A DNA stretch of 64,000 nucleotides, taken from assembly GCA_902826215.1 (NCBI GenBank), contig CADEDY010000001.1, forward strand, positions 310,001 to 374,000, written 5' to 3'. The DNA comes from an uncultured Bacteroidota bacterium (GTDB lineage Bacteria > Bacteroidota > Bacteroidia > Flavobacteriales_F > PHOS-HE28). Shown here one piece after another: positions 6,632-55,611 of this stretch (the first letter of the stretch is position 1; the number at the start of each line of letters is the position of its first letter). The notes beneath the pieces were generated by a model. The model had not been told where the DNA came from, did not search any database, and worked only from the letters and a program-made list of their open reading frames with translations. The position numbers and the translations under genes were made by a program.

Positions 6632-6841
6632 GATCGCTTCGCGCCATTTCCTGATCGTAGTTCGCCAATTATCGATCAGGATGCGGGGTATCTCGATCGT
6701 TCTGTCGCGTTTCTTGATCGATGTCTCGCGTATTTCGATCAAGTTGCCGCAATTATCGATCGTTCTGTCGCGCATCTCGATCAAGTTGCCGCGTATTTCG
6801 ATCGATATTTCTCGCATATCGATCGGTATTTGCGGTTGGTC
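6632..6841. repeat. Ten-unit 21-bp GATC-phased repeat array
   Basis: GATC occurs at 6632, 6653, 6674, 6695, 6716, 6737, 6758, 6779, 6800 and 6821, exactly 21 bp apart ten times. The remaining 17 bases are degenerate but related; frequent versions are GTTCTGTCGCG, AAGTTGCCGCG and cores ending TATTTC or TATC. Because 21 is a multiple of three, both strands stay open and would encode heptads (plus strand SI.L.RI; minus strand SIEIRGN, TIDNCGN), but the flanks do not look like protein. It fills the 651-bp gap (6435-7085) before the FnIII gene at 7086, together with the palindromes at 6886-7003. Confidence 0.85.
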
Positions 6842-6885: not shown

Positions 6886-7003
6886 CACGCTTCGTGCACG
6901 GCTTCGGCACCATTTCTTTTGGGCATTTAAGTGCACCGGGTGCACCCCCCGCAATTGCTGGGCCCAAGGCAAAAGAAGGTGCACCGAAGTGTACCGGGTA
7001 CAC
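6886..7003. repeat. Paired 15-bp palindromes within a larger imperfect inverted repeat
   Basis: GTGCACCGGGTGCAC at 6931-6945 and GTGTACCGGGTACAC at 6989-7003 are perfect palindromes around a central G and differ at only two symmetric positions. A smaller inverted repeat, TGCACG-ctt-CGTGCA, lies near 6886-6900. The flanks (CTTCGGCACCATTTCTTTTGGGC near 6902 and a complementary GCCCAAGGCAAAAGAAG stretch near 6962) form an imperfect long stem around the first palindrome. This could be a MITE-like relic or a pair of operator sites for the FnIII gene 80 bp downstream. Confidence 0.55.
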
Positions 7004-7085: not shown

Positions 7086-7718
7086 ATGAGCATCATCAAA
7101 ACATTCCTCGTCAAGCTGGGCCTCTCCGGCCTCACCTCATCGGCCTTGGTGGAAAAAGGCCGCAACCACGTCACCATGCTTACGGACAACCCCAACTACC
7201 CCACGTTGCAGTCGGAGTTGGCGGATACCACGAAAGCGTGTGACGACCTGGACGCCGCCAACCAGGAAATGTTGTTCAATGGTGGTAAGATCGCTTCGGA
7301 GAAGAAGCGCGAACTGGACAGCGCCCTGCGCATCCGCCTCACCGGCATCGGCCAACAGGTACAGGTGATCAGCGGTGGCGACAAGGCGAAGATCCTCAGC
7401 GCCGGTTTCGAAGTCCGCAAGAGCGCCGAACCCATCACCAAGCTCAGCCAACCACAGGACCTTCGCTCCAGCCTCCCCGGCTTCAGCGGTCTGGTGGATC
7501 TGGACTGGGAAGTGGTGCGTGGCGCGCGTTACTACAACGTATGGTTCACGGCAGGCGACCCCACCACGGCCCAATGGCAGCTGGCGGGTAGCACCACCAA
7601 GAGCCGCTACACCATGGAGAAGTTGACGCCCGGTACCACCTACAGCTTCCGTGTGAATGCTGTGGGAGCCCGCGCCGAAAGCATCTTCAGCGACATCACA
7701 TCCATCATGGCCGCCTAA
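7086..7718 (+). CDS. Small alpha-helical plus fibronectin type III protein (paralog 1)
   Basis: The 210-residue protein lacks a signal peptide. Residues 1-130 are helical and charged and end in the motif ILSAGFEVRK. Residues 135-210 form one FnIII-like domain, with the family pattern YNVWFTAG, WQLAGSTTKSRYTMEKLTPG and TTYSFRVNAVGARA. It is a clear paralog of the product at 46376, which has the same architecture and an ILSSGFEVKR motif. ATG 7086 is chosen because family similarity between the paralogs starts just after it, although the frame stays open upstream through the 21-bp array. Function is unknown. A strong terminator follows. Confidence 0.75.
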   Translation: MSIIKTFLVKLGLSGLTSSALVEKGRNHVTMLTDNPNYPTLQSELADTTKACDDLDAANQEMLFNGGKIASEKKRELDSALRIRLTGIGQQVQVISGGDKAKILSAGFEVRKSAEPITKLSQPQDLRSSLPGFSGLVDLDWEVVRGARYYNVWFTAGDPTTAQWQLAGSTTKSRYTMEKLTPGTTYSFRVNAVGARAESIFSDITSIMAA

Positions 7719-7918: not shown

Positions 7919-8275
7919 ATGGAGGACACCCCCACACCCCGCCCCCCGGAGATCCAGCCCTTGCTGGAGCTGATCACTGATCTGCATATCCTTATGCAAC
8001 GGCTCAACGCCATGCTGGTGCCGGAGCAAACCCCGCCCGCCCAGGCTCGCCCACCGGCCTCGCGACCTGCCGAACCCATTGTGCTCAGCCCGCGGATGCG
8101 CGAATTCCTGGGCCTTTTGTGCCACCCCAAGGGCTACACCTACAAGGAGACCGCCGCCATGATGAATGTTTCCCTAAGCAACCTGCGCAAGTGGCGCGAT
8201 CGCATCCGCGACCGCTACGGCCCCGATGGCAAAACCGCCATCGCCCTGTGGGCGAAGCAGAATGGGTTGGGGTAG
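7919..8275 (+). CDS. Small LuxR/GerE-like helix-turn-helix protein
   Basis: The 118-residue product has a proline-rich N-terminal half (residues 1-55). The C-terminal half resembles a LuxR-type DNA-binding domain: LSPRMREFLGLLCHPKGYTY, then KETAAMMNVSLSNLRKWRDR and a final IALWAKQNGLG helix. No receiver domain is present, so this is either a stand-alone regulator or an output module whose sensor is encoded elsewhere. A TATTTTCG box, one mismatch from TAnnTTTG, lies near 7863-7870. Its neighbours are the FnIII protein upstream and the split kinase downstream. Confidence 0.7.
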   Translation: MEDTPTPRPPEIQPLLELITDLHILMQRLNAMLVPEQTPPAQARPPASRPAEPIVLSPRMREFLGLLCHPKGYTYKETAAMMNVSLSNLRKWRDRIRDRYGPDGKTAIALWAKQNGLG

Positions 8276-8692: not shown

Positions 8693-10111
8693 TTGCAGGA
8701 GCATCGCATCGCTCAAGAATTGAAACTACAGGGACATGGAATTCCTAATCTTATTGACATTCTCGCAGGTGGCAAAGAGGCGATCGATAACGTTGAGTAC
8801 CACTATGTCGTCATGCCATTCCACAAGGGGACAACACTGTCTTCGTATATCAGGCAGAGTGAATACGACAACGACTTCATTCGGAAGGTGCTTGGAACAT
8901 TGACGTCTGTTACAGAAGCGCTTCTGGCGCTTGGTATCGCACATCGGGATGTCAAGTCTGAGAACATCATGATTGATGATGAGGGCAATCTCGTTCTTAT
9001 GGATCTGGGTGTTCTCAAACTAATCGCCACCGAGTCAATTAGCGATGATGCTCATCGGGAATTTGTCGGTACACTCCGCTATGCGCCGCCTGAGTTTATT
9101 ACTCGTAAGGAAGCTGATAATTTGGAGGGGTGGAGGTCGATAACCTTATATCAGATTGGTGGAGTTCTTCACGATTTAGTAGTAAAGGAGGAACTCTTCA
9201 AGGATAGCTATCCGTATCCAAACTTGGTAGTTTCGATTCTGGAGGATGCTCCACCGGTAAGTAACTCACTTGTTGACTTCGAACTCGTGCAATTAACTCG
9301 AGACCTGCTTACCAAAGACTGGAAGAAGCGCCTTGCGAGTTGTCCTGTAGATAGGCTTATGAGACTCGCCGTGGCTGGAGCTAAGAACCTACCTAGCATC
9401 GATCAGTACGTTGAGGACATTAGGAAGATGTCGCAAGGACATCGAATGAAGATTGAAGAGGCCGAGCAACATAGAAGGACCAGATATGAACGCAATAGGA
9501 ACAGTGGGGCATTGTCCATGCGGTTCCAAACGCTCGTGAATGGGTGCTTCGAATTCGGTAAGGGACTAGGATTGTACGGGCACTATGAAATTTCCAAGCC
9601 CACCACTGACGAGGTAACCGAGGTGAATGGTACATTCACTAAAGCAGTCAGCTATATAGTAACCATACAAGGAAAACAGGCTCAAGGATTCTTAAATCAT
9701 TTGATGATTTTGGTGAAGGTTACCTGTGACGAACAGAGTTCGGGTTCCATCTCAATGTTAGGTATATTTCCGGGAGCGATGTTCAAGTATAACGAAGCCG
9801 ACCCAAAGAAGAAATTCTCAGCCTTGTCGAAGGAACTTCTGAAAGTACACCAAGCGGTCAGAAAGTCAAACGGGAGCATTGAGATTAGGCTTGATACAAT
9901 TTTTGAGGGGACCATTTCCTTGGATGACCAGTTCAGAGACAAGATTCGGGAGCAATGGCTGAAGCTTTTGAAGTTGGCGCTGGAGAAGGTCGCCGACAAA
10001 GTCACCCTCACACTCGACCGGGCTTTGCGCCATCAAAAAGGAGAAATCCGTACGTATGTGCCAGTTAGGGTCGAAGAGCCTATCGTTATACGACCGGAGA
10101 GCCACGATTAA
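8693..10111 (+). pseudogene. Ser/Thr protein kinase, catalytic core and unknown C-terminal domain (same frame as upstream fragment)
   Basis: This part carries the kinase catalytic loop HRDVKSENIMID, the DLG metal motif (LVLMDLGV) and the activation-loop end GTLRYAPPEF. After the kinase fold (about residue 235) come about 235 residues I do not recognise, containing HYEISKPTTDEV and the final YVPVRVEEPIVIRPE. It shares frame 2 with the fragment at 8504-8683 and is separated only by the TAA and three codons. It has no ATG near its 5' end (TTG at 8693), supporting one interrupted gene rather than two. The region is visibly more AT-rich, with less biased codon use than its neighbours, suggesting recent transfer. 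Suppressed stop, decay and sequencing error all remain possible. Confidence 0.7.
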
Positions 10112-44737: not shown

Positions 44738-45772
44738 TCAATAAGTAGGTGAACTAAAGCGGTGTTCCCAAGGACGGAAATTCACCCAGGTGAACGGGCC
44801 GATCCGTGCCGAGGTGTGTGTTTGCACGTTCGTCATCAGGTCGTCCACGTAGTTTTCCCAGTTGGGCCATATGGACTTCTTTGGCAACGGTTCCGGGCTG
44901 ATGAGCAGGTAGGCGCGCAGTTGGCTCAGCCAACACGCGTATCCTTCGGTATGATGGATCCGAAGCTTCTTGCTCCCCTTTGGCAGCGGAGGCAAAGGCT
45001 CGCTCGTTTCGGCCTGTTCGCGGTGCACGTGGATGATGATGCGTAGGCCGCGAAAATGCCGGTTCAAGAGCTCCACGAAGGACTTGAGATCCTTTGGCTT
45101 CCGATAGGAGCGCCACCTTGCGGACGCGCTTTCGAGCTGATCGGCAAGTGCTGCACCGAACGGGCCGTCCATGCTGAGGTGGAACGGGACACGGTAAGGG
45201 ACGAATCGATCGCGTGCGCGACTTTCCACGCTCCTTTCACCGATCGCGAAAGCACGTGTGTGCCGATCAAGATGTACGCCCAGCAACTGGTGTTGATGCG
45301 CCGTGTTGGCAGGCTGCACGGAGCCAAACATGGCATCCGGCTCGACCGGGTCTCCGTATCCGGATCGCTGTAAAAGTCTGATATGACGGCTTACCACCGA
45401 TCGGGACACACCTGCCTTATGGGCGATCCACGTCTGGGTCCACCTTGGCTTCGGTTGGTATATATAGGTCATCAATAGATGCATCAGGTCCGAGCGCTTC
45501 TGCTTGGTCAAGGTGGATGGGCGGCCTTGGCGGGGCATGTCCTCCAAGCCGAGCAGCCCTTCATTTCTGAAACGTTCGCGCCATTTCGCCACGGTGGCAC
45601 GACCCAGGCCGGTCTGTTCCATGATCGCATCCAAGGTGGCCCCGGCCAAGCTCATCAGGATCACTTGGGCACGCACACTAAGCACAGGTCGGCTCGCCTG
45701 CGATGAGGCCCAGGCCTGAAGCTTCATCAGTTCCTCATCGTTGATCACGAAGGCGCGTGAAGGGCGTGCCAT
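44738..45772 (-). CDS. IS630-family transposase-like protein lacking the DDE residues
   Basis: The 344-residue protein has the IS630 N-terminal helix-turn-helix tandem (LSVRAQVILMSLAGATLDAI, GLGRATVAKWRERFRNEGLL, RQGRPSTLTKQKRSDLMHLL). In the catalytic half, alignment by eye puts GERSV where IS630 has VDEKS, IHVHRE where it has VLDN, and CWLSQLRAYL where it has SWLNQVEIYF. On that alignment all three acidic residues are lost. The frame is intact. I found no convincing terminal inverted repeats, so it may be an old insertion or a domesticated DNA-binding protein. Confidence 0.7.
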   Translation of the reverse strand: MARPSRAFVINDEELMKLQAWASSQASRPVLSVRAQVILMSLAGATLDAIMEQTGLGRATVAKWRERFRNEGLLGLEDMPRQGRPSTLTKQKRSDLMHLLMTYIYQPKPRWTQTWIAHKAGVSRSVVSRHIRLLQRSGYGDPVEPDAMFGSVQPANTAHQHQLLGVHLDRHTRAFAIGERSVESRARDRFVPYRVPFHLSMDGPFGAALADQLESASARWRSYRKPKDLKSFVELLNRHFRGLRIIIHVHREQAETSEPLPPLPKGSKKLRIHHTEGYACWLSQLRAYLLISPEPLPKKSIWPNWENYVDDLMTNVQTHTSARIGPFTWVNFRPWEHRFSSPTY

Positions 45773-45889
45773 GGGTCGCACTTGAATTAGTTCATGAATA
45801 TACGCCCATCGGGTATTCTCTGTCGTTTTATTCGGATCCAGAGGTCCGTCAATTTGTTCCGCAAGAGCATGAAGCACCGAGCGCCACAG

Positions 45890-46225
45890 AACGATACGAG
45901 CGAGCCGACCACTGCTATCGGCGGCGCTGGCACGCTTGCATCGCCCGTTGTGCGGAACGTTACGCTCGGGCAAGCGATCGCTTCGATCTCTGTTGCGATC
46001 GCTTTCGTGATCAATACGCTTGCAACAGGCACGTATGCGATCGCTTCAAGCGTTGGATCGAACGCACTAAGCGCACAAAGGCATGCAACAGCGGCCCACT
46101 CGTTCATTCCACGCTCCGGTGCATACGCGGCAGCGATCGTTACGCTCCAAGAAGAGCCCCGTGCATGTGCAATGCGCGTTGGATCGTTCCGGCACCAAGG
46201 GCAAGCAACCGTTGCAATGGTGACC
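45890..46225. repeat. Second 21-bp-period degenerate array
   Basis: Related cores recur at 21-bp steps: GCGATCGCTT at 45974, 45995 and 46037; ACGCTTGCA at 45932 and again at 46016 (four periods apart); TCGAACGCAC at 46058; TCGTTC at 46100 and 46184; GCATACGCGG at 46121; GCATGTGCAA at 46163. It is more degenerate than the array at 6632, with about 15 units. It fills most of the 603-bp gap 45773-46375, which holds nothing else visible, ahead of FnIII paralog 2. Confidence 0.7.
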
Positions 46226-46375
46226 GTACCCTATTGTGCGCGGCCCCCACCGGCATGCCCGTACCCAAGCGGACACGCATACCGGGCACGTGGTCCTCCG
46301 GTAGGCGCTGCACGCCATCGCACATGGAAAGAAGTGACCAACGTTCGATCTACACAAACACCAACAACCGCCATC

Positions 46376-46993
46376 ATGGCAACATTAGCTAAGAACATAA
46401 GAGGCCTTAACGCTGCCCAAGTGGTCAGCAAGGTGCGTTTCATCGAAGAACGCATGAAGAACAATCCGGCCTATCCGGAACCCACACCCACGCTCGGCGA
46501 TATCGCCACGGCACGCGAAGCACTGGAAGCGGCGATCACCGCCGCCAAGGACGGTGGTCGCACGGCTACGGCGATCCGTCGCGCACGGCAACGCGAACTG
46601 ATCCTGCTGCTGAACCAGCTGGGCGGCTACGTTTCGTCCATTGCGGAAGGCAACGCACTGGCCATCCTGAGCAGTGGCTTCGAGGTGAAGCGCACCGGCC
46701 GCCCTACCGGTGAGCTGGAACCCACCCGCGACCTGCGGGCCATGATCAGCGCCTTCAAGGGGCGCGTGGACCTGCGCTGGGATCCGGCGAAGGATGCGAT
46801 CGCCTATCACATCTACTTCAGCAGGAACGAGCCCACGGATGATACCAGCTGGGAGCTGGCCGGGGTGAGTACCAAGGCCAGCTTCAAGGTCACGGGCCTG
46901 GAGTCGGCCAGGACCTACTGGTTCCGCGTAGCGGCGATAGGTACCACAGGCATGGGACCCCTCGGTGAGGTAGCCCACAGCCTGGTGCGCTAA
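46376..46993 (+). CDS. Small alpha-helical plus fibronectin type III protein (paralog 2)
   Basis: The 205-residue protein has the same layout as the product at 7086: a helical N-terminal region (VSKVRFIEERMKNNPAYPEP ... REALEAAITAAKDGGRTATA) with an ILSSGFEVKR motif at about residue 103, then one FnIII domain (VDLRWDPAKDAIAYHIYFSR, WELAGVSTKASFKVTGLESA, RTYWFRVAAIGTTG). No signal peptide. The frame remains open upstream through the 21-bp array, but homology with paralog 1 begins near ATG 46376. A strong terminator follows. Confidence 0.75.
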   Translation: MATLAKNIRGLNAAQVVSKVRFIEERMKNNPAYPEPTPTLGDIATAREALEAAITAAKDGGRTATAIRRARQRELILLLNQLGGYVSSIAEGNALAILSSGFEVKRTGRPTGELEPTRDLRAMISAFKGRVDLRWDPAKDAIAYHIYFSRNEPTDDTSWELAGVSTKASFKVTGLESARTYWFRVAAIGTTGMGPLGEVAHSLVR

Positions 46994-47065
46994 GCGCAGT
47001 TGGGGCCAGGGCCGTTCGTGCGGCACCCGGCCCCGGTACTGTGCTGCCCACACCCAACGAGGAAT

Positions 47066-47100
47066 GGCGGCCCTGCGAAAGTAGGGCCGCCGTTGTTTTT
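47066..47100 (+). terminator. Intrinsic terminator after FnIII paralog 2
   Basis: GGCGGCCCT (47066-47074) pairs perfectly with AGGGCCGCC (47083-47091) and is followed by GTTGTTTTT. Confidence 0.75.
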
Positions 47101-47180: not shown

Positions 47181-50100
47181 ATGTCCACCATCGGCCCGCA
47201 GGGCATTCAAGCCTTTATTACCAAATGGGAAGTAAGCGGCGCCGCCGAACGGGCCAACGCGCAGCTCTTCATTGCGGAACTATGCGACGTGATCGGTGTG
47301 GAACTGCCGCAACCGAAGACACCCGATGAACACGCCAATGCCTACGTCTACGAGAAGACCATTCCGAGCGTAACGGACACCACCAACTTCATCGACTGCT
47401 ACAAGCGCGGGCACTTCGTACTGGAAACGAAACAGGGAGCGGATGCCGTACGGGCGGATCATGATCCGCCCTTCAGCGCTGCTGGCGAACACCGCCAGCG
47501 TGCGCTGAAAAAAGGCCACGGTATACGCGGCACCAAAGGCTGGGACACCGCCATGCTGAAGGCCCGCGAGCAGGCGCAACGCTACGCCCGCGCCTTGCCC
47601 AAGGAAGAGATCGCCGATGGCCGTCCGCCCTTCATCCTGGTGGTGGATGTGGGCCACAGCATCGCGCTGTACACCGATTGGAGCCGCATGGGCGGCGAGT
47701 ACATCCCGTACCCCGACCCGGCCACCTACCGCATACCGCTGAAGGACCTTTTGCGCAGCGAGGTGCGCGAACTGCTGCACGCCGTATGGACCGATCCGCT
47801 TGCGCTGGACCCCGGCCGACGCAGCGCCAAGGTGACGCGCGAGATCGCCGATCGCTTGGCGAAACTTGCCCGAAGCCTCGAAGGCAACCCCGGCTCGGGG
47901 GCCGGGGTGACGTACTCGCCGGAGCACGTCGCGAACTTCCTGATGCGCTGCCTCTTCACCATGTTCAGTGAAGATGTGGACCTGCTGCCACACGGCTCCT
48001 TCACCAAGCTCTTGGGCGAACTGAAGAGCGACCCCAGCACCTTTCCGGAGATGATGGAGAACCTCTGGGGCACCATGAACACCGGTGGCCTCAGCCCCAT
48101 CCTGCGCAAGAAACTACCGCGCTTCAACGGCGGGCTCTTTGCCCATACCGACGCCATCGCCTTGGATGCCGACCAGATCCAACTGCTCATCGAAGCCGCC
48201 ACCGCCAACTGGCGCGATGTGGAACCCGCCATCTTCGGCACCTTGCTGGAACGTGCGCTGGACCCCCGCGAACGCCACAAGCTAGGTGCGCACTACACGC
48301 CGCGTGCCTACGTGGAACGCTTGGTGAACCCCACCGTGATCGACCCGCTGCGCGAGCAATGGAAGAGCGTGCAGGTGGCCGCGCTGCAACTCGCGGAGGA
48401 CGGCAACGAGAAGAAGGCCATCAAGCAAGTCGAAGCCTTCCTGCACGAACTGGCCACCGTGAAAGTGCTGGACCCCGCCTGCGGCAGCGGCAACTTTTTA
48501 TATGTGACCTTGGAGCTGTTGAAGCGGCTCGAAGGTGAGGTGCTGAACACCCTGCACGAGCTGGGCGCCACCGCCAAGATGGAATTGGAAGGCGTGATGG
48601 TAACGCCCGCCAACTTCTACGGCATCGAGCTGAACCCGCGCGCCGCCGCCATTGCCGAGCAAGTGCTGTGGATCGGCTTTCTGCAATGGCACCTGCGCAC
48701 CCATGGCAACCTGCACAACCTGCCCGAGCCCATCATCAAGGACCTGCACAACATCCAATGCCGCGATGCCGTGCTGGACTACGACAGCAAGACCGAACAG
48801 CGCGATGCCAACGGCGCCGTGGTGACCAAGTGGGATGGACGTACCACCAAGCCGCACCCCGTTACCGGCGAAGAAGTGCCCGACCCCGAAGCCCGCGAGC
48901 CGGTGTACACCTACAGCAACCCGAAGCCCACCAAATGGCCTGCTGCGGATTACATCGTGGGGAACCCGCCGTTCATAGGCACCTCGATGATGCGCGAAGC
49001 CTTGGGCGATGGATACACCGAAGCATTGAGAGGTGTGTATGAACACGTGCCGGACAGCGCCGACTTCGTGATGTGCTGGTGGGATAAGGCCGCCGAACTC
49101 ACCCGCACCGGCAAGGCGAAACGCTTCGGCTTTATCACCACGAATAGCCTGAAGCAGACCTTCAATCGCAAGGTCCTGCAACACCATATGGCCCAGAAGA
49201 AGCCGATCTCCTTGGCCTTCGCGATACCGGACCACCCTTGGGTGGATAGTGCCGATGGTGCAGCCGTGCGCGTGGCAATGACCATAGGTGTACCCGGCAA
49301 TGTGCAAGGCATGTTACATAAGGTGGTGAAGGAAGTAGAGTCGAAAGCTGATGATGCTTCAGAGGTTACTATCGCATCGCAAGGCGGAAAGATCTTCGCT
49401 GACCTTACAATTGGTTCGGACGTTGCTAGTTCAATCGGCCTTGTCGCAAATGAAGAAATCAGCAGCCGAGGTGTTCAAGTGATCGGCGCTGGCTTCATTG
49501 TTACACCTGAACGCGCGAAAGAACTCGGACTTGGTCGCGTCGCTGGTTTAGAGAAACACCTTCGTCTCTATCGCAACGGTCGTGACATCACAGCGGAAGC
49601 GCGCGATTCAATGGTGATCGACCTATTCGGGCTTTCCTCATCCGAGGTGAAGGACCGCTTTCCGGAAGTATACCAGCATGTGATTGAAACAGTAAAGCCG
49701 GAACGAGATCAGAACAACCGCGCTTCATACCGGGATGCTTGGTGGATCCATGGTGAACCCCGCAAGAGCTTCAGGCCCGCGCTTGCTGGATTGGAGCGCT
49801 ATATCACCTCGCCAGAAACAGCGAAGCATCGCTTCTTCGTCTTCCTTGACAAGAGCATACTGCCGGACAATGCATTGGTGAACATCGCTCTTGATGACGC
49901 CTACTATCTGGGCATATTGAGCAGCAACATCCACATTACATGGGCTTTGGCAACCGGTGGCACATTGGAAGATCGGCCGCGCTACAACAAGACCCGCTGC
50001 TTCGAGACCTTCCCCTTCCCAGCGAGCACCCCGGCGCAGCAGGAGAAGATCCGTGCCTTGGGCGAGCAGTTGGATGCGCACCGCAAGCGGCAGCAGGCGC

Positions 50101-50711
50101 TGCACCCCGGCCTTACGATGACGGGGATGTACAACGTGTTGGAGCGCGTTCGCGAACTCGAGACTCCGGGTCAAGCCCGGAGTGACGTACCGTCGTTGAA
50201 CGCCAAAGAGAAAGTGATCTACGAGCAAGGGCTGGTGGGCATCCTGAAGCAACTGCACGACGAGCTGGATGCCGCCGTGGCCGATGCCTACGGTTGGCCT
50301 GCAGACCTGAGCACCGACGCCATCCTTACCCGCCTCGTAGCTCTTAACGCCGAACGCGCTGCCGAAGAAGCCCAAGGCCACATCCGCTGGCTGCGGCCGG
50401 AATACCAGTACAAGGGTGCAAGCAACAGCAAACAAGCAAGCCTCGCGGTGGACACGGTGGTCGCTGTGGTCGCGTCCACAGCGTCCACATTGTCCACCCG
50501 CCAATGGCCCAAAGACCTACCGGCCCAAGCCGCTGCGCTTACCGAAGTGCTCGGCACCTTGGTCGCACCCGCTACAGTAGAGGAGATCGCCGCGCTCTTC
50601 GAAGGCAAGCGGAGTAAGAAACGGGTGGATGAGATGCAGCGGTTGTTGGAGACTTTGGCGGCGGTGGGGCGGGCGCAGCAGGTTGAGGGTCAATGGTCAA
50701 GTGGTGGGTGA
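47181..50711 (+). CDS. Type IIL/IIG (MmeI-like) restriction enzyme-methyltransferase fusion
   Basis: At 1176 residues this single chain combines nuclease, adenine methyltransferase and target-recognition domains. The nuclease motif is D72-x9-E82-x-K84 ([16 protein letters not shown]), the same spacing as MmeI. The methylase has the SAM motif [10 protein letters not shown] at about residue 430 and the N6-adenine motif NPPFIG at about residue 594. The TRD-like part follows (residues 800-950), then a helical end. No separate specificity or methylase gene is adjacent. Between nuclease and methylase, and again near residue 995, palindromic DNA is inserted in frame (47452-47509 and 50163-50183). 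Confidence 0.88.
47452..47509. repeat. In-frame palindrome plus hairpin inside the restriction enzyme gene
   Basis: GGGCGGATCATGATCCGCCC (47452-47471) is a perfect palindrome. It is directly followed by a stem of TTCAGCGC (47472-47479) with GCGCTGAA (47502-47509) containing an inner CTGGCG/CGCCAG stem. Together they encode about 19 residues ([20 protein letters not shown]) just after the nuclease motif. Confidence 0.65.
50163..50183. repeat. In-frame REP-like palindrome ACTCCGGG-tcaag-CCCGGAGT
   Basis: A perfect eight-base stem with a five-base loop lies inside the coding sequence and encodes TPGQARS. The core CTCCGGG/CCCGGAG resembles dispersed palindromic elements seen in many bacterial genomes. 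Confidence 0.6.
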
Positions 50712-51276: not shown

Positions 51277-54200
51277 ATGCTTGATCGTGTCATTCGTTTT
51301 TCCATTGAGAACAAGCTGATCATCGGCTTGCTCACCTTACTTCTTGTGGCGTGGGGCAGTTGGTCCCTCACCAAGTTGCCCATTGATGCCGTGCCGGACA
51401 TCACCAACAACCAGGTGCAGGTGATCACCAACGCGCCAGCGCTCAGTGCCTTGGATATTGAACGGCTTGTGACCTTCCCTGTGGAGCAGACCATGGCCAC
51501 CATACCGCGGATCACGGAGATGCGTTCCTTCAGCCGTTTCGGGCTGAGCGTGATCACCATCGTTTTCGAGGACGATGTGGATGTGTATTGGGCTCGCCAA
51601 CAAGTGGCCGAACGCCTTACTGAGGCCAAGGAACAGATACCGCCGGGCGCTGGCACCCCCGCCATGATGCCCGTGACCACCGGACTGGGCGAGATCTACC
51701 AATACGTGTTGCACGCCGACAGTGCGCATGCCAAGGAATACGATGCCATGAAGCTGCGCGAGATCCAGGATTGGATCGTCAGGCGGCAACTGTTGGGCGT
51801 ATCCGGTGTGGCGGATGTGAGCAGCTTCGGCGGCTTTGTGAAACAGTTCGAAGTGGCACTGGACCCTGCCCGTTTGCGCAGTACGGGGATCACCCTTGCC
51901 GAGATCCTGCAGGCCTTGGAACGCAACAACCAGAATACCGGTGGCGCGTACATCGACAAGAACCCTCGCGCCTGGTTCGTGCGGAGCATCGGTCTGGCGG
52001 GCACCATGGAAGACCTGAACGCCATTGTGGTGAAGAACACACCCGATGGTGCGCCGATCCTGATGCGTGATGTGGCCACCGTGCAGTTGGGCCACGCGGT
52101 ACGCTACGGAGCAATGACGCGCAATACCGAAGGAGAGGTCGTGGGCGCTATCGTGATGATGCTGAAAGGAGCGAACAGCAATGAAGTGATCGCCAATGTG
52201 AAGGAGCGGATCGAGCAGATCAAGAAGACCCTGCCGGAAGGTGTGGTGATCGAGCCTTTCCTGGACCGCACCAAATTGGTGAACAGCGCCATAAGCACGG
52301 TAACGAAGAACCTGGCCGAAGGAGCCTTGATTGTGATCCTGGTGTTGGTGCTGATGCTCGGGCAGTGGCGTGCCGGACTGATCGTGGCCAGCGTGATCCC
52401 CTTGGCCATGCTCTTTGCCATCGGGTGCATGCGGGCATTCGGGGTAAGCGGCAACTTGATGAGCTTGGGCGCGATCGACTTCGGCCTTATCGTGGATGGT
52501 GCCGTGATCATCGTGGAAGCCACGCTCCACCATCTGCATCGCGGCAAACGGGAAGTGGTGCTCACACAAAAGGACATGAATGGCGAAGTGTATGAAGCGG
52601 CGTCGAAGATCAGAAGCAGTGCGGCCTTTGGTGAGATCATCATCCTGATCGTGTACCTACCGATCCTGGCCTTGGTGGGTGTGGAAGGGAAGATGTTCAA
52701 GCCGATGGCACAGACCGTTTCCTTCGCCATTGCCGGCGCCTTCATCCTCTCGCTTACTTACGTCCCAATGATGAGCGCATTGTTCCTGAAGAAGACGATC
52801 AGGAACGAGCAGACCATGAGCGACCGGTTCATAGCATGGGTACAACGCGGGTATGCCCCTTTGCTCGAACGCGCTTTACGTGCCCGCAAATTGGTGGTCG
52901 TCATCAGCATAGCGCTCTTTCTGGGTGCGCTCGCCTTGTTCATGGGCATGGGTGGTGAATTCATTCCAACATTGGACGAAGGGGACTTCGCCGTGGAGAC
53001 CCGTGTCCTTACGGGCAGCAGCGTTTCCCACACGGTGGATAAGACCTTGCAAGCCAGCGAAGTGTTGCTGAAGAATTTCCCGGAAGTGGAACAGGTGGTG
53101 GGCAAGATCGGATCCAGCGAAATTCCCACCGACCCCATGCCGGTAGAGGCCTGCGACTTGATGGTGATCCTGAAGGACAAGGACGAATGGACCACAGCAA
53201 ACACCCGAGAGGCGCTTGCCGATTCCATGGCCAAGGCGCTCGAAGTATTGGCCGGAGTGAGCTTCAGTTTCCAACAACCCATACAGATGCGATTCAATGA
53301 ACTGATGTCCGGTGCCAAGCAGGATGTGGTCCTGAAGATCTACGGCGAGGACCTGGATGAACTCACCCGTTATGCCAAACGCGTTGGTGCCATCTGCCGC
53401 ACCGTGCCCGGTGCACAGGATATTTATGTGGAACAGGTAAGCGGTCTGCCGCAGATCGTTATGGATATCGATCGCCAGCGTCTGGCACGGTTCGGGCTGA
53501 GTGTAGAAGAAGTGAATGCGACCATGCGTGCGGGCTTTGCTGGGCAGGAAGCAGGTACCTTATATGAAGGCGAGCGGCGGTTCAGTATCGTGGTCCGGTT
53601 AGAGCAGGGTCACCGGCAAAGCATCGAGGACCTGCAGCGGCTCTTCGTTACCAGCAGTAGCGGCGTGCAAGTTCCGTTGGGGCAGGTGGCTGATATCCGC
53701 TTGGTGGACGGTCCCAACCAGATCCAACGGGATGATGCGAAGCGACGGATCACCGTGGCCTTCAATGTGCGCGGCCGCGATGTGGAAAGCATCGTGGAAG
53801 AAGTGAAAGGAAAGATCACTACGGATATCACTTTCAAGCCAGGCTACTACGTGACCTATGGAGGCATGTTCGAGAACTTGGTGGAAGCGCGCGGGCGGCT
53901 GGCCATTGCCGTACCGGTGGCCTTGTTCCTGATCCTGATCCTATTGTACTTCACCTTCGGCAGCATCCGGCAGGGCCTATTGATCTTCAGCGCCATACCG
54001 CTCAGCGCCATCGGCGGGGTGCTGGCCCTTTGGCTCCGTGGCATGCCGTTCAGCATCAGCGCGGGTGTGGGTTTCATCGCCTTGTTCGGCGTGGCGGTGC
54101 TCAACGGGATCGTGCTCATCGGTGAATTCAACCGCCAGAAGAAGGAGGGCCATGACCTGCTTGAAGTAGTACGCCGCGGGGCCGCTGTACGGCTGCGTCC

Positions 54201-55611
54201 GGTACTGCTTACGGCCATGGTGGCATCCTTGGGCTTCCTGCCCATGGCCTTGAGTGGCAGCAGTGGGGCTGAAGTACAGCGCCCTTTGGCCACCGTGGTG
54301 ATCGGTGGTCTTCTTACGGCCACTTTGCTCACCCTGCTCGTGTTGCCCGTGCTCTACGTGATGTTCGAACCAAGGGGAAAGCGGCCCAAGCGTGGTACAG
54401 CTCCTGCCGCGCTGCTCGTTCTGCTGCTTGCCGTGCCATGTGCAACACAAGCACAACAGCCAATGTCCTTGGAGCAGGCCATGGCACAGGCGATCGCCAC
54501 CCACCCCCAGCTGAAGGCGGCAACGCTCCAAGTGGAAAGCAAGGAGAGTCAGCGGACCGGAGCTTTCGAGCTCGGCAATACGCAACTGGTGATCCTGAAC
54601 GGACAATACAACAGTGCACTTACCGATCGCAGTTACGCCATCAACCAACCGCTGCCCCTGTTGCAATGGAGCGGGTCCCGGAAGCTGAGCAATGCCGACC
54701 TGCAACTCAGTGAAGCAGCACTGACCCTCACCCAGAGCCAACTGCTCTACAATGTGCGCGTGGCATTCGCCGATGTGCAACGGCTGCAAGCATTGGTGGA
54801 TCTCCGCACCCGACAGGACAGCGCGCTGACCGGATATCGGGACGTGATGGAGCAACGCTACAAGGCCGGGGATGTCCCCCAGCTGCAAGCATTGAACGCA
54901 CAGGTGCAAGCCTTGGAAGCGAACAACGCCTTGCTCAGCACCCGCGCAGAACTGGATGCGGCGGCCAAGCATCTGCAACTGCTCATTGGTGCGGCAGAAC
55001 CCGTTCGCTCCGTTGCAGCGTTGGTCGCGCTGCCAGCGCCACTCACTGGTGAGGTCCCTGCGGATGCTCCCGCAGTTGCTTTCATGCGTCAACAGGTCGA
55101 AGTGGCCCAGGCGCACAAGCGTGTGGAACAGGCGAAGTTGCTACCCGAGTTCGGTATCGGGTACTTCGATCAATCGCTCATCGGCACACCGTTGAACGAT
55201 GGCCGATCCGCAACGAGCAGCGACCGGTTCACTGGTGTCCAGTTGAGCGTAGGTATTCCCTTGTGGTTCGTTCCGGGCGTTGCGCGCACCAAGGCTGCCG
55301 ATCTGCAACAAAAAGTGGCCGAGCAGGAATTGGCAAGCACCATGCTCCAGCAGCAAAGCGCCATGGCCGAAGCACAGGCCGAGCTTGAACGGCGGACCAG
55401 GGAAGTGACCTATTACCAAGAGCAAGCGCTACCGCAGGCACGCACGGTGAGAGAACAGGCAGCGCGTGCAATGCGATCCGGCCAGATCGCACAACTCGAA
55501 TTCCTACAAGTGATCGGCCAAAGCTTGACCATCGAAGAAGGCGCTGTGAACGCGCTCCATGCCCAACATCTTGCCGTGGGCCGCATCCTCTACATCACCG
55601 GCGAGAATTGA
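51277..55611 (+). CDS. czcA: CzcA/CusA-family heavy-metal RND pump fused to a TolC-like outer-membrane domain
   Basis: Residues 1-1045 form an HME-RND pump: N-terminal helix (FSIENKLIIGLLTLLLVAWG), the TM4 proton-relay block DFGLIVDGAVIIVEA near residue 401, and twelve helices overall. After a second signal-like segment (AALLVLLLAVPCATQAQQ, about residue 1048) the last 390 residues are a TolC/OEP domain (MAQAIATHPQLKAATLQVES, LLYNVRVAFADVQRLQALVD). The DFGxxxDGA form is typical of divalent-cation (Zn/Co/Cd/Ni) exporters. The fused pump-channel layout is known in Bacteroidota. Confidence 0.92.
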   Translation: MLDRVIRFSIENKLIIGLLTLLLVAWGSWSLTKLPIDAVPDITNNQVQVITNAPALSALDIERLVTFPVEQTMATIPRITEMRSFSRFGLSVITIVFEDDVDVYWARQQVAERLTEAKEQIPPGAGTPAMMPVTTGLGEIYQYVLHADSAHAKEYDAMKLREIQDWIVRRQLLGVSGVADVSSFGGFVKQFEVALDPARLRSTGITLAEILQALERNNQNTGGAYIDKNPRAWFVRSIGLAGTMEDLNAIVVKNTPDGAPILMRDVATVQLGHAVRYGAMTRNTEGEVVGAIVMMLKGANSNEVIANVKERIEQIKKTLPEGVVIEPFLDRTKLVNSAISTVTKNLAEGALIVILVLVLMLGQWRAGLIVASVIPLAMLFAIGCMRAFGVSGNLMSLGAIDFGLIVDGAVIIVEATLHHLHRGKREVVLTQKDMNGEVYEAASKIRSSAAFGEIIILIVYLPILALVGVEGKMFKPMAQTVSFAIAGAFILSLTYVPMMSALFLKKTIRNEQTMSDRFIAWVQRGYAPLLERALRARKLVVVISIALFLGALALFMGMGGEFIPTLDEGDFAVETRVLTGSSVSHTVDKTLQASEVLLKNFPEVEQVVGKIGSSEIPTDPMPVEACDLMVILKDKDEWTTANTREALADSMAKALEVLAGVSFSFQQPIQMRFNELMSGAKQDVVLKIYGEDLDELTRYAKRVGAICRTVPGAQDIYVEQVSGLPQIVMDIDRQRLARFGLSVEEVNATMRAGFAGQEAGTLYEGERRFSIVVRLEQGHRQSIEDLQRLFVTSSSGVQVPLGQVADIRLVDGPNQIQRDDAKRRITVAFNVRGRDVESIVEEVKGKITTDITFKPGYYVTYGGMFENLVEARGRLAIAVPVALFLILILLYFTFGSIRQGLLIFSAIPLSAIGGVLALWLRGMPFSISAGVGFIALFGVAVLNGIVLIGEFNRQKKEGHDLLEVVRRGAAVRLRPVLLTAMVASLGFLPMALSGSSGAEVQRPLATVVIGGLLTATLLTLLVLPVLYVMFEPRGKRPKRGTAPAALLVLLLAVPCATQAQQPMSLEQAMAQAIATHPQLKAATLQVESKESQRTGAFELGNTQLVILNGQYNSALTDRSYAINQPLPLLQWSGSRKLSNADLQLSEAALTLTQSQLLYNVRVAFADVQRLQALVDLRTRQDSALTGYRDVMEQRYKAGDVPQLQALNAQVQALEANNALLSTRAELDAAAKHLQLLIGAAEPVRSVAALVALPAPLTGEVPADAPAVAFMRQQVEVAQAHKRVEQAKLLPEFGIGYFDQSLIGTPLNDGRSATSSDRFTGVQLSVGIPLWFVPGVARTKAADLQQKVAEQELASTMLQQQSAMAEAQAELERRTREVTYYQEQALPQARTVREQAARAMRSGQIAQLEFLQVIGQSLTIEEGAVNALHAQHLAVGRILYITGEN

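Follow-up and report, generated by a model that had tools for sequence, protein, structure and literature searches.

Helically phased repeat arrays precede the genes of a helical-FnIII protein family in five bacterial phyla

What is a degenerate array with a 21-bp period doing in front of a gene for a small protein with a fibronectin type III (FnIII) domain, and do the two belong together as a repeated unit? The question was raised by the first-pass annotation of the window, i.e., the whole stretch of 64,000 nucleotides analysed here, taken from the genome of an uncultured Bacteroidota bacterium. Two FnIII paralogs about 39 kb apart had been noticed there, each preceded by a 21-bp-period array and followed by a terminator, and a mobile or duplicated cassette had been suggested. 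The features of the two loci, designated here as cassettes 1 and 2, are as follows:

6660-6830, no strand: array of 21-bp units with TCGATCGAT-type dyads, cassette 1 (Tandem Repeats Finder, autocorrelation)
6931-7003, no strand: related palindrome pair, GTGCACCGGGTGCAC (6931-6945) and GTGTACCGGGTACAC (6989-7003), between array and gene, cassette 1
7086-7718, plus strand: helical-FnIII paralog, 210 aa (HMM match; Pfam fn3 27.6 bits)
7919-8275, plus strand: small LuxR-like or sigma-r4-like helix-turn-helix (HTH) protein, 118 aa, partner of cassette 1 (local LuxR-type HMM, E 3e-22)
44738-45973, minus strand: winged-HTH ORF of the transposase type (HTH_29, HTH_32 and HTH_28 domains)
45900-46230, no strand: degenerate array of ~21-bp units with GCGATCGC cores, cassette 2 (autocorrelation, unit rows, repeats)
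46231-46375, plus strand: non-periodic spacer or 5' leader from array to gene, cassette 2 (the period signal ends)
46376-46993, plus strand: helical-FnIII protein gene, 205 aa, three-helix N-domain and FnIII domain (HMM family, AlphaFold2, fold match)
47063-47094, plus strand: intrinsic-terminator-like hairpin with 14 pairs and a T run

The 21-bp period in 45890-46376 is genuine. Its combined match score at 21, 42 and 63 bp amounted to 0.479, the runner-up period reaching 0.333, and it was attained by none of 1000 dinucleotide-preserving shuffles (0/200 when any period from 12 to 40 was allowed). The signal is confined to about 45,900-46,230 with a peak at 45,950-46,150; palindromic cores GCGATCGC start at 45974, 45995 and 46037, spaced by 21 and 42 bp, and about 150 bp without periodicity separate the array from the ATG at 46376. 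Tandem Repeats Finder did not report this array because its copies are too diverged. The array of cassette 1 is far stronger (0.66; 0/1000 shuffles; palindromicity z 4.3). Both arrays seen at first pass are thus real, and so is the terminator described after the gene at 46376-46993.

A partner scan with dedicated HMMs detected no partner HTH gene in cassette 2, and the spot where other cassettes often have one is occupied by the transposase-type ORF. In genome G034, the orthologue of cassette 2 shows 96% identity across the array region, equal to the conservation of the flanks. Cassette 2 is a degenerate, HTH-less example whose array has possibly been decaying after the adjoining transposase insertion; decay is plausible, and it has not been shown. 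The winged-HTH ORF directly before the array is present too at the orthologous locus L015. Directly after cassette 2 follows an MmeI-like type IIG restriction-modification enzyme (47181-50711, plus strand) with MmeI_N, helicase-spacer, Mtase and TRD domains, and further downstream one ORF of 1444 aa (51277-55611, plus strand) fuses an AcrB-type RND pump with an outer-membrane efflux (OEP) domain. As for cassette 1, its HTH protein matched Pfam HTH_28 at 2e-5, just below the HTH_28 cut-off, and a protein kinase-like gene (8693-10111, plus strand) lies directly 3' of the HTH gene.

The AlphaFold2 model of the cassette 2 protein (pLDDT 95.3) reveals three main helices and an FnIII sandwich. The latter superimposes on the FnIII of integrin beta4 (VIA Z 15.5, rmsd 1.6, 90 residues), and the predicted structure meets the beta-sandwich fold criterion of Pfam fn3 (PF00041), for which the protein encoded at 46376 scored 22.7 bits, a genomic paralog 24.6 and the paralog at 7086 27.6, the gathering cut-off being 25. 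Modelled alone, the N-domain retained a pLDDT of 92.7; a fold search gave no PDB match at E<=0.001 and no recognised DNA-binding fold, and Pfam, NCBIfam, PHROGs and PADLOC have no family for the three-helix domain. The whole protein is covered by no NCBIfam, PHROGs or PADLOC family either; the main PHROG matches, to tail proteins, are restricted to the FnIII part, and PADLOC hits to Cas7 and ZorA were weak, concerned single members only and were judged to be chance. Inspection by eye revealed no signal peptide, and this protein of about 205 aa looks cytosolic. A role as a scaffold or in something adhesion-like is no more than a guess.

The assumption that the window held the only two paralogs did not stand. 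The source genome (4.16 Mb, the window lying on contig C1) contains 11 full-length FnIII gene copies and one fragment, mostly on large contigs. When up to 1.5 kb upstream of the full-length copies were read, eight had clear 21-bp arrays, one (L011) had a 22-bp array and two, namely cassette 2 (L001) and L002, had weak 21-bp arrays; no array was found upstream of the FnIII-only fragment L012. The unit sequences of these arrays have nothing in common, as exemplified by GTACATGTAC, GTGCGCAC, TCGATCGAT and GTGTACA cores.

Some sequence elements outside the arrays are shared or recur. Just past the FnIII stop, L007, L009 and L011 carry a common 3' sequence, GCACCGCGCGTTCCCACGAGCGGGGAACAGG, with one or two differences, while their genes and arrays have diverged; it might be a cassette end or a recombination site. 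In genus loci such as L007, L018, L019, L020 and L077, the last 60 bp before the ATG contain a conserved 5' leader, AAGGGCC...AACCAACGC...AGGCCC, which is common to cassettes with unrelated arrays. Related palindrome pairs, specific to each locus, lie between array and gene at L007, L021, L023, L044, L076, L095, L097 and, in the window, at 6931-7003. Such pairs were detected in 12 of the 104 loci scanned and are not general; they could represent a second set of operators.

With an HMM built from the 11 source-genome proteins, the family was found in 33 of the 45 genus genomes examined (E<=1e-6), at 0 to 19 matches per genome, fragments counted, and proved rare elsewhere in the phylum sample. 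A separate search with non-genus members yielded 63 loci from GTDB genomes of the Bacteroidota, Ignavibacteriota, Verrucomicrobiota, Acidobacteriota and Planctomycetota; in this out-of-sample set, nearly all full-length members had a 21/42-bp array (one 22/44, one 20/40), and FnIII-only fragments had none, with the exception of L194. Counting only those full-length homologues for which 700 bp or more of upstream sequence were available, we observed an array of 20, 21 or 22 bp (one of them 20 bp) in 132 of 144 across five phyla, 89/97 in the genus and 43/47 in other groups, versus 6 of 145 loci with the same array score downstream. Measured from where the array stops to where the HMM match begins, the median distance is 258 bp, and the arrays stop about 250 bp before the gene. 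The first-pass annotation had proposed precisely such an HMM search with upstream 21-bp scoring, which would have spoken against it if most homologues lacked an array. They are not the majority, co-occurrence is recurrent, and a repeated cassette of array, helical-FnIII protein and terminator is supported; the first-pass annotation had missed that the units are dyads, that a 22-bp class exists and that many loci have an adjacent HTH gene. Genome-wide controls, covering 864 kb of the source genome and not all of it, revealed that strong signals specific for 21 or 22 bp are either FnIII-linked arrays or coding repeats. Two other 21-bp signals (L239 near 5428 and L243 near 12296) lie inside long ORFs, where a periodicity of seven residues gives 21 bp.

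One site supports the suggested mobility of the cassette. There, in genome G021, a cassette lies between two genes that we take to encode an acyl-CoA dehydrogenase and a XerC/D-like protein, named from sequence without a domain scan. In 21 of 29 other genus genomes, the same two genes are direct neighbours, with a gap of 323-526 bp into which the cassette cannot fit; several of the remaining eight lack the flank sequence. At this one site, the cassette was inserted as a stand-alone unit, which indicates mobility or at least a lineage-specific insertion. Across loci, the flanking genes are of mixed families and in both orientations. No match for a family member was obtained in 72,556 plasmid records, and no relative of the helical-FnIII protein was found among phages and viral contigs. 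We therefore rejected a phage or plasmid origin, for which these collections hold no relatives, as well as the idea of a phage structural protein, the main PHROG matches being those to the FnIII part only.

The arrays themselves were compared over 138 loci. The observed period is 21 bp in 115, 22 bp in 21 and 20 bp in two, one of the latter (L100) being an assembly N-run. They consist of about 7-28 direct repeats whose units abut, with higher-order units of 42 or 44 bp in several arrays, and the spacing of 21-22 bp corresponds to two helical turns. Self-complementarity of the unit profile, compared with column shuffles, exceeded z=2 in 61 of 136 arrays and z=3 in 27 (median 1.7), and a second palindromicity scoring placed 74 of 138 above z=2. 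The excess is clear as a distribution; over half of the single arrays stay below z=2. Complementarity peaks 1.5-4.5 bp from the axis, without an unpaired loop at the centre, and variants within arrays at paired positions comprise 366 G-T and 366 A-C cases, similar in subsets. Since folding of one RNA strand would favour G-U, this equality assigns the dyad to double-stranded DNA. The symmetry is as for the site of a homodimer on double-stranded DNA, for which there are no binding data.

The units are also private to their arrays. Unit PWMs of L003, L004 and L007-L011 found no isolated copies in 0.91 Mb of the source genome, and that of L005, the sole exception among the eight strong arrays tested, found two stray ones. 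A dispersed regulon was therefore rejected, as seven of the eight arrays have no stray units in this ~0.9 Mb. Between loci, units become less similar as the FnIII proteins diverge, and their similarity is close to baseline once protein identity drops below about 65%. All 22-bp arrays are accounted for by a single supported clade of 20 genus proteins and by one Verrucomicrobia protein, and the protein tree requires two or three changes of period versus 19.8 in shuffles. Persisting while unit similarity decays, the period goes with the protein lineage and not with the unit sequence. Two outliers were recorded: a 20-bp array in an uncultured Bacteroidetes genome (L177, 3530-3810) and the Verrucomicrobia 22-bp array (L184, 3631-3873), which is independent of the 22-bp clade and for which no XRE partner was found.

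An HTH gene adjoins the array in about half of the genus loci. Altogether, an adjacent HTH gene could not be recognised for about 90 of 143 arrays, nearly all non-genus loci lack one, and 19 of 20 HTH-less loci checked have none within about 5 kb either. Pfam analysis of the neighbours gave LuxR/GerE in 7 of 53 upstream neighbours (E<=1e-5) and no enrichment downstream. With dedicated HMMs, an XRE/HTH_3 gene was found adjacent to 18 of the 21 22-bp arrays and a LuxR-like HTH gene adjacent to the cassette at 31 of 120 21-bp arrays and at no 22-bp array; XRE-like matches at 21-bp arrays were three and weak, two of them being the transposase of cassette 2 and its orthologue. The observed association of HTH class with period, without real crossover, has a Fisher value of 3e-11; cassette partners had served as seeds for the HMMs, which are biased towards them. 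The background is low, with five LuxR-like hits in 864 kb, two of them cassette partners, and two XRE-like hits, one of them a cassette partner. Pfam HTH_3 (PF01381) confirmed the 22-bp partners in 4/4 tested (26.5-42.1 bits, cut-off 23); GerE (PF00196) gave no Pfam match for the window partner (P0004) or the L002 fragment, which only the local HMM matched. Phylogenetically, the link between XRE and 22 bp goes back essentially to one clade or evolutionary event, with only two independent contrasts.

Taken together, the module has two invariant parts, a dyad array of 7-28 units and, about 250 bp on, a monocistronic helical-FnIII gene, usually followed by a terminator; the HTH gene next to the array is an optional third part. 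It looks like a self-contained, unnamed DNA-binding switch or structure. Going beyond the observed linkage, period, dyads, array privacy, HTH-period association and insertion at one site, we tentatively propose, with confidence just short of an even chance and without binding or expression data, that the array is operator-like, is cooperatively bound on one face of the helix and controls the helical-FnIII gene. A dimeric DNA-binding protein would recognise the unit dyad, the two-turn spacing would align its copies on one DNA face so that they bind cooperatively, and the resulting complex would switch expression of the FnIII gene; the cooperative one-face binding by a dimer, the regulation and the orthogonality of paralogous cassettes are all inferred. 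The binder is probably, again by inference, the HTH partner where present, and this adjacent protein would be the likeliest candidate; in HTH-less cassettes, the role might fall to an HTH protein encoded elsewhere or to the FnIII protein. With its own unit sequence at each locus, many cassettes could coexist in one genome without cross-talk.

As to what binds the array, a different reading is that the helical-FnIII protein, by its N-domain or as an oligomer, does so in a self-recognising protein-DNA assembly, the HTH genes being accessory. We hold this to be unlikely, without setting it aside. Nothing but the array and the FnIII gene is invariant, also in phyla without an adjacent HTH gene, the period follows the FnIII clade, and the FnIII domain is basic, with a median pI of 9.2; the N-domain, however, has a median pI of only 7.8, and, as mentioned, neither a recognised DNA-binding fold nor a PDB match at E<=0.001. 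Among LuxR-partnered cassettes, units are more alike where the FnIII proteins are more alike (Mantel p<0.0005), which does not hold for HTH-domain identity, i.e., co-evolution of HTH and unit was not detected. Since the FnIII gene lies nearer to the array than the HTH gene does, linkage alone could yield this correlation.

That the array is instead a centromere- or nucleoid-like site, where a nucleoprotein structure is seeded to position or organise the DNA and the FnIII protein serves as a scaffold, appears improbable. An HTH gene, iterated repeats and a third protein resemble the layout of a partition module (PMC5016525, PMC7762940), and helical phasing would fit as well, but the cassette lacks an NTPase, occurs with up to 19 matches per genome and has no homologue that could be found on plasmids or phages. 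Still less credence is due to the arrays as a neutral by-product, tandem repeats made by slippage and tolerated upstream of the FnIII family. Ongoing slippage or unequal exchange is visible in the 42/44-bp higher-order units, and degenerate arrays exist; this explanation is nevertheless strained by palindromes and by arrays that, across five phyla, keep to a single gene family, a single distance and two periods, none of which it would lead one to expect. Very doubtful, too, is an action of the array as RNA, be it a structured leader or a tandem small RNA. Its position upstream on the coding strand and the hairpins in some spacers would suit an RNA; the dyads are loopless, their mismatches favour neither strand, and no Rfam family exceeded its gathering score, on which grounds RNA structure was rejected. 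A heptad-repeat peptide encoded by the array (7 aa x 3 = 21 bp), either fused to the FnIII protein or ahead of it, has practically nothing left in its favour: the frame is indeed open through both window arrays into the gene, as the first-pass annotation had stated for the pair, and other genomic 21-bp periodicities sit in long ORFs resembling coiled coils, but the frame is closed in 9/11 genomic copies and 22-bp arrays (21/138) cannot keep it, which refutes a coding array for the family as a whole and leaves the two open frames as chance in a GC-rich genome.

In our opinion, there is a reasonable, somewhat better than even case for an undescribed, widespread chromosomal module in which a private, helically phased dyad array co-evolves with a helical-FnIII family; the family or the HTH partner would set the period of 21 or 22 bp, the unit sequence would turn over freely, and one genome would hold numerous DNA-protein assemblies orthogonal to one another. 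The literature searched contained no description of the module; our coverage of subscription papers and preprints was thin, and an earlier report is not excluded. If true, genomes of at least five phyla would carry a DNA-protein module without a name, a single genome of one genus having as many as 19 non-identical matches. It would provide a natural library of orthogonal operator arrays, with the regulator beside many of them, a direct test of how arrays hold one period while every base changes, and the first functional lead for a protein family whose N-domain has no Pfam entry.

Compared with known systems, the module agrees with each in part. Proteins of Pfam fn3 share the C-terminal FnIII domain by fold; here, it is fused to a three-helix domain without a family, and no signal peptide was seen by eye. 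CRISPR and TIGR arrays are likewise repeat arrays beside a gene. By definition, a CRISPR array has conserved repeats separated by unique spacers, whereas the cassette period is much shorter and its units abut without unique spacers; no Cas or Nop5-type gene was among the families in the scanned cassette neighbours. Tandem operators of XRE/Cro-CI and LuxR/NarL regulators are dyad sites near a gene of that regulator class. The known ones hold a few sites, whereas the cassette arrays have 7-28 at a strict two-turn spacing, and their period varies with the regulator class. The partition sites of TubR/tubC and ParR/parC also combine an HTH protein, an iterated site and a further protein in one cassette (PMC5016525, PMC7762940); in our case, the third protein is helical-FnIII, no actin- or tubulin-like NTPase or filament protein is present in a cassette that comprises, beyond the FnIII gene, an HTH gene at most, as a type II or III partition system would demand, and it was not found on plasmids. 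Finally, theta plasmids such as R6K and pPS10 carry iteron arrays of 22-bp direct repeats (PMC4980987). The likeness lies in the repeats, direct ones of about 21-22 bp, in the gene for a DNA-binding protein that many FnIII loci have beside them, and in helical phasing, which matters for cooperative binding to iterons and is proposed to do so here. Of the features that define an iteron origin, 17-22-bp direct repeats in an array are met by the cassettes; a Rep family was found neither among the scanned neighbours nor in the FnIII protein, and a plasmid location is not met, given the plasmid records searched and the large contigs that carry most of the genome's own copies. The cassette differs from theta-plasmid iterons in being chromosomal and multicopy, with 7-28 palindromic units that differ from locus to locus.
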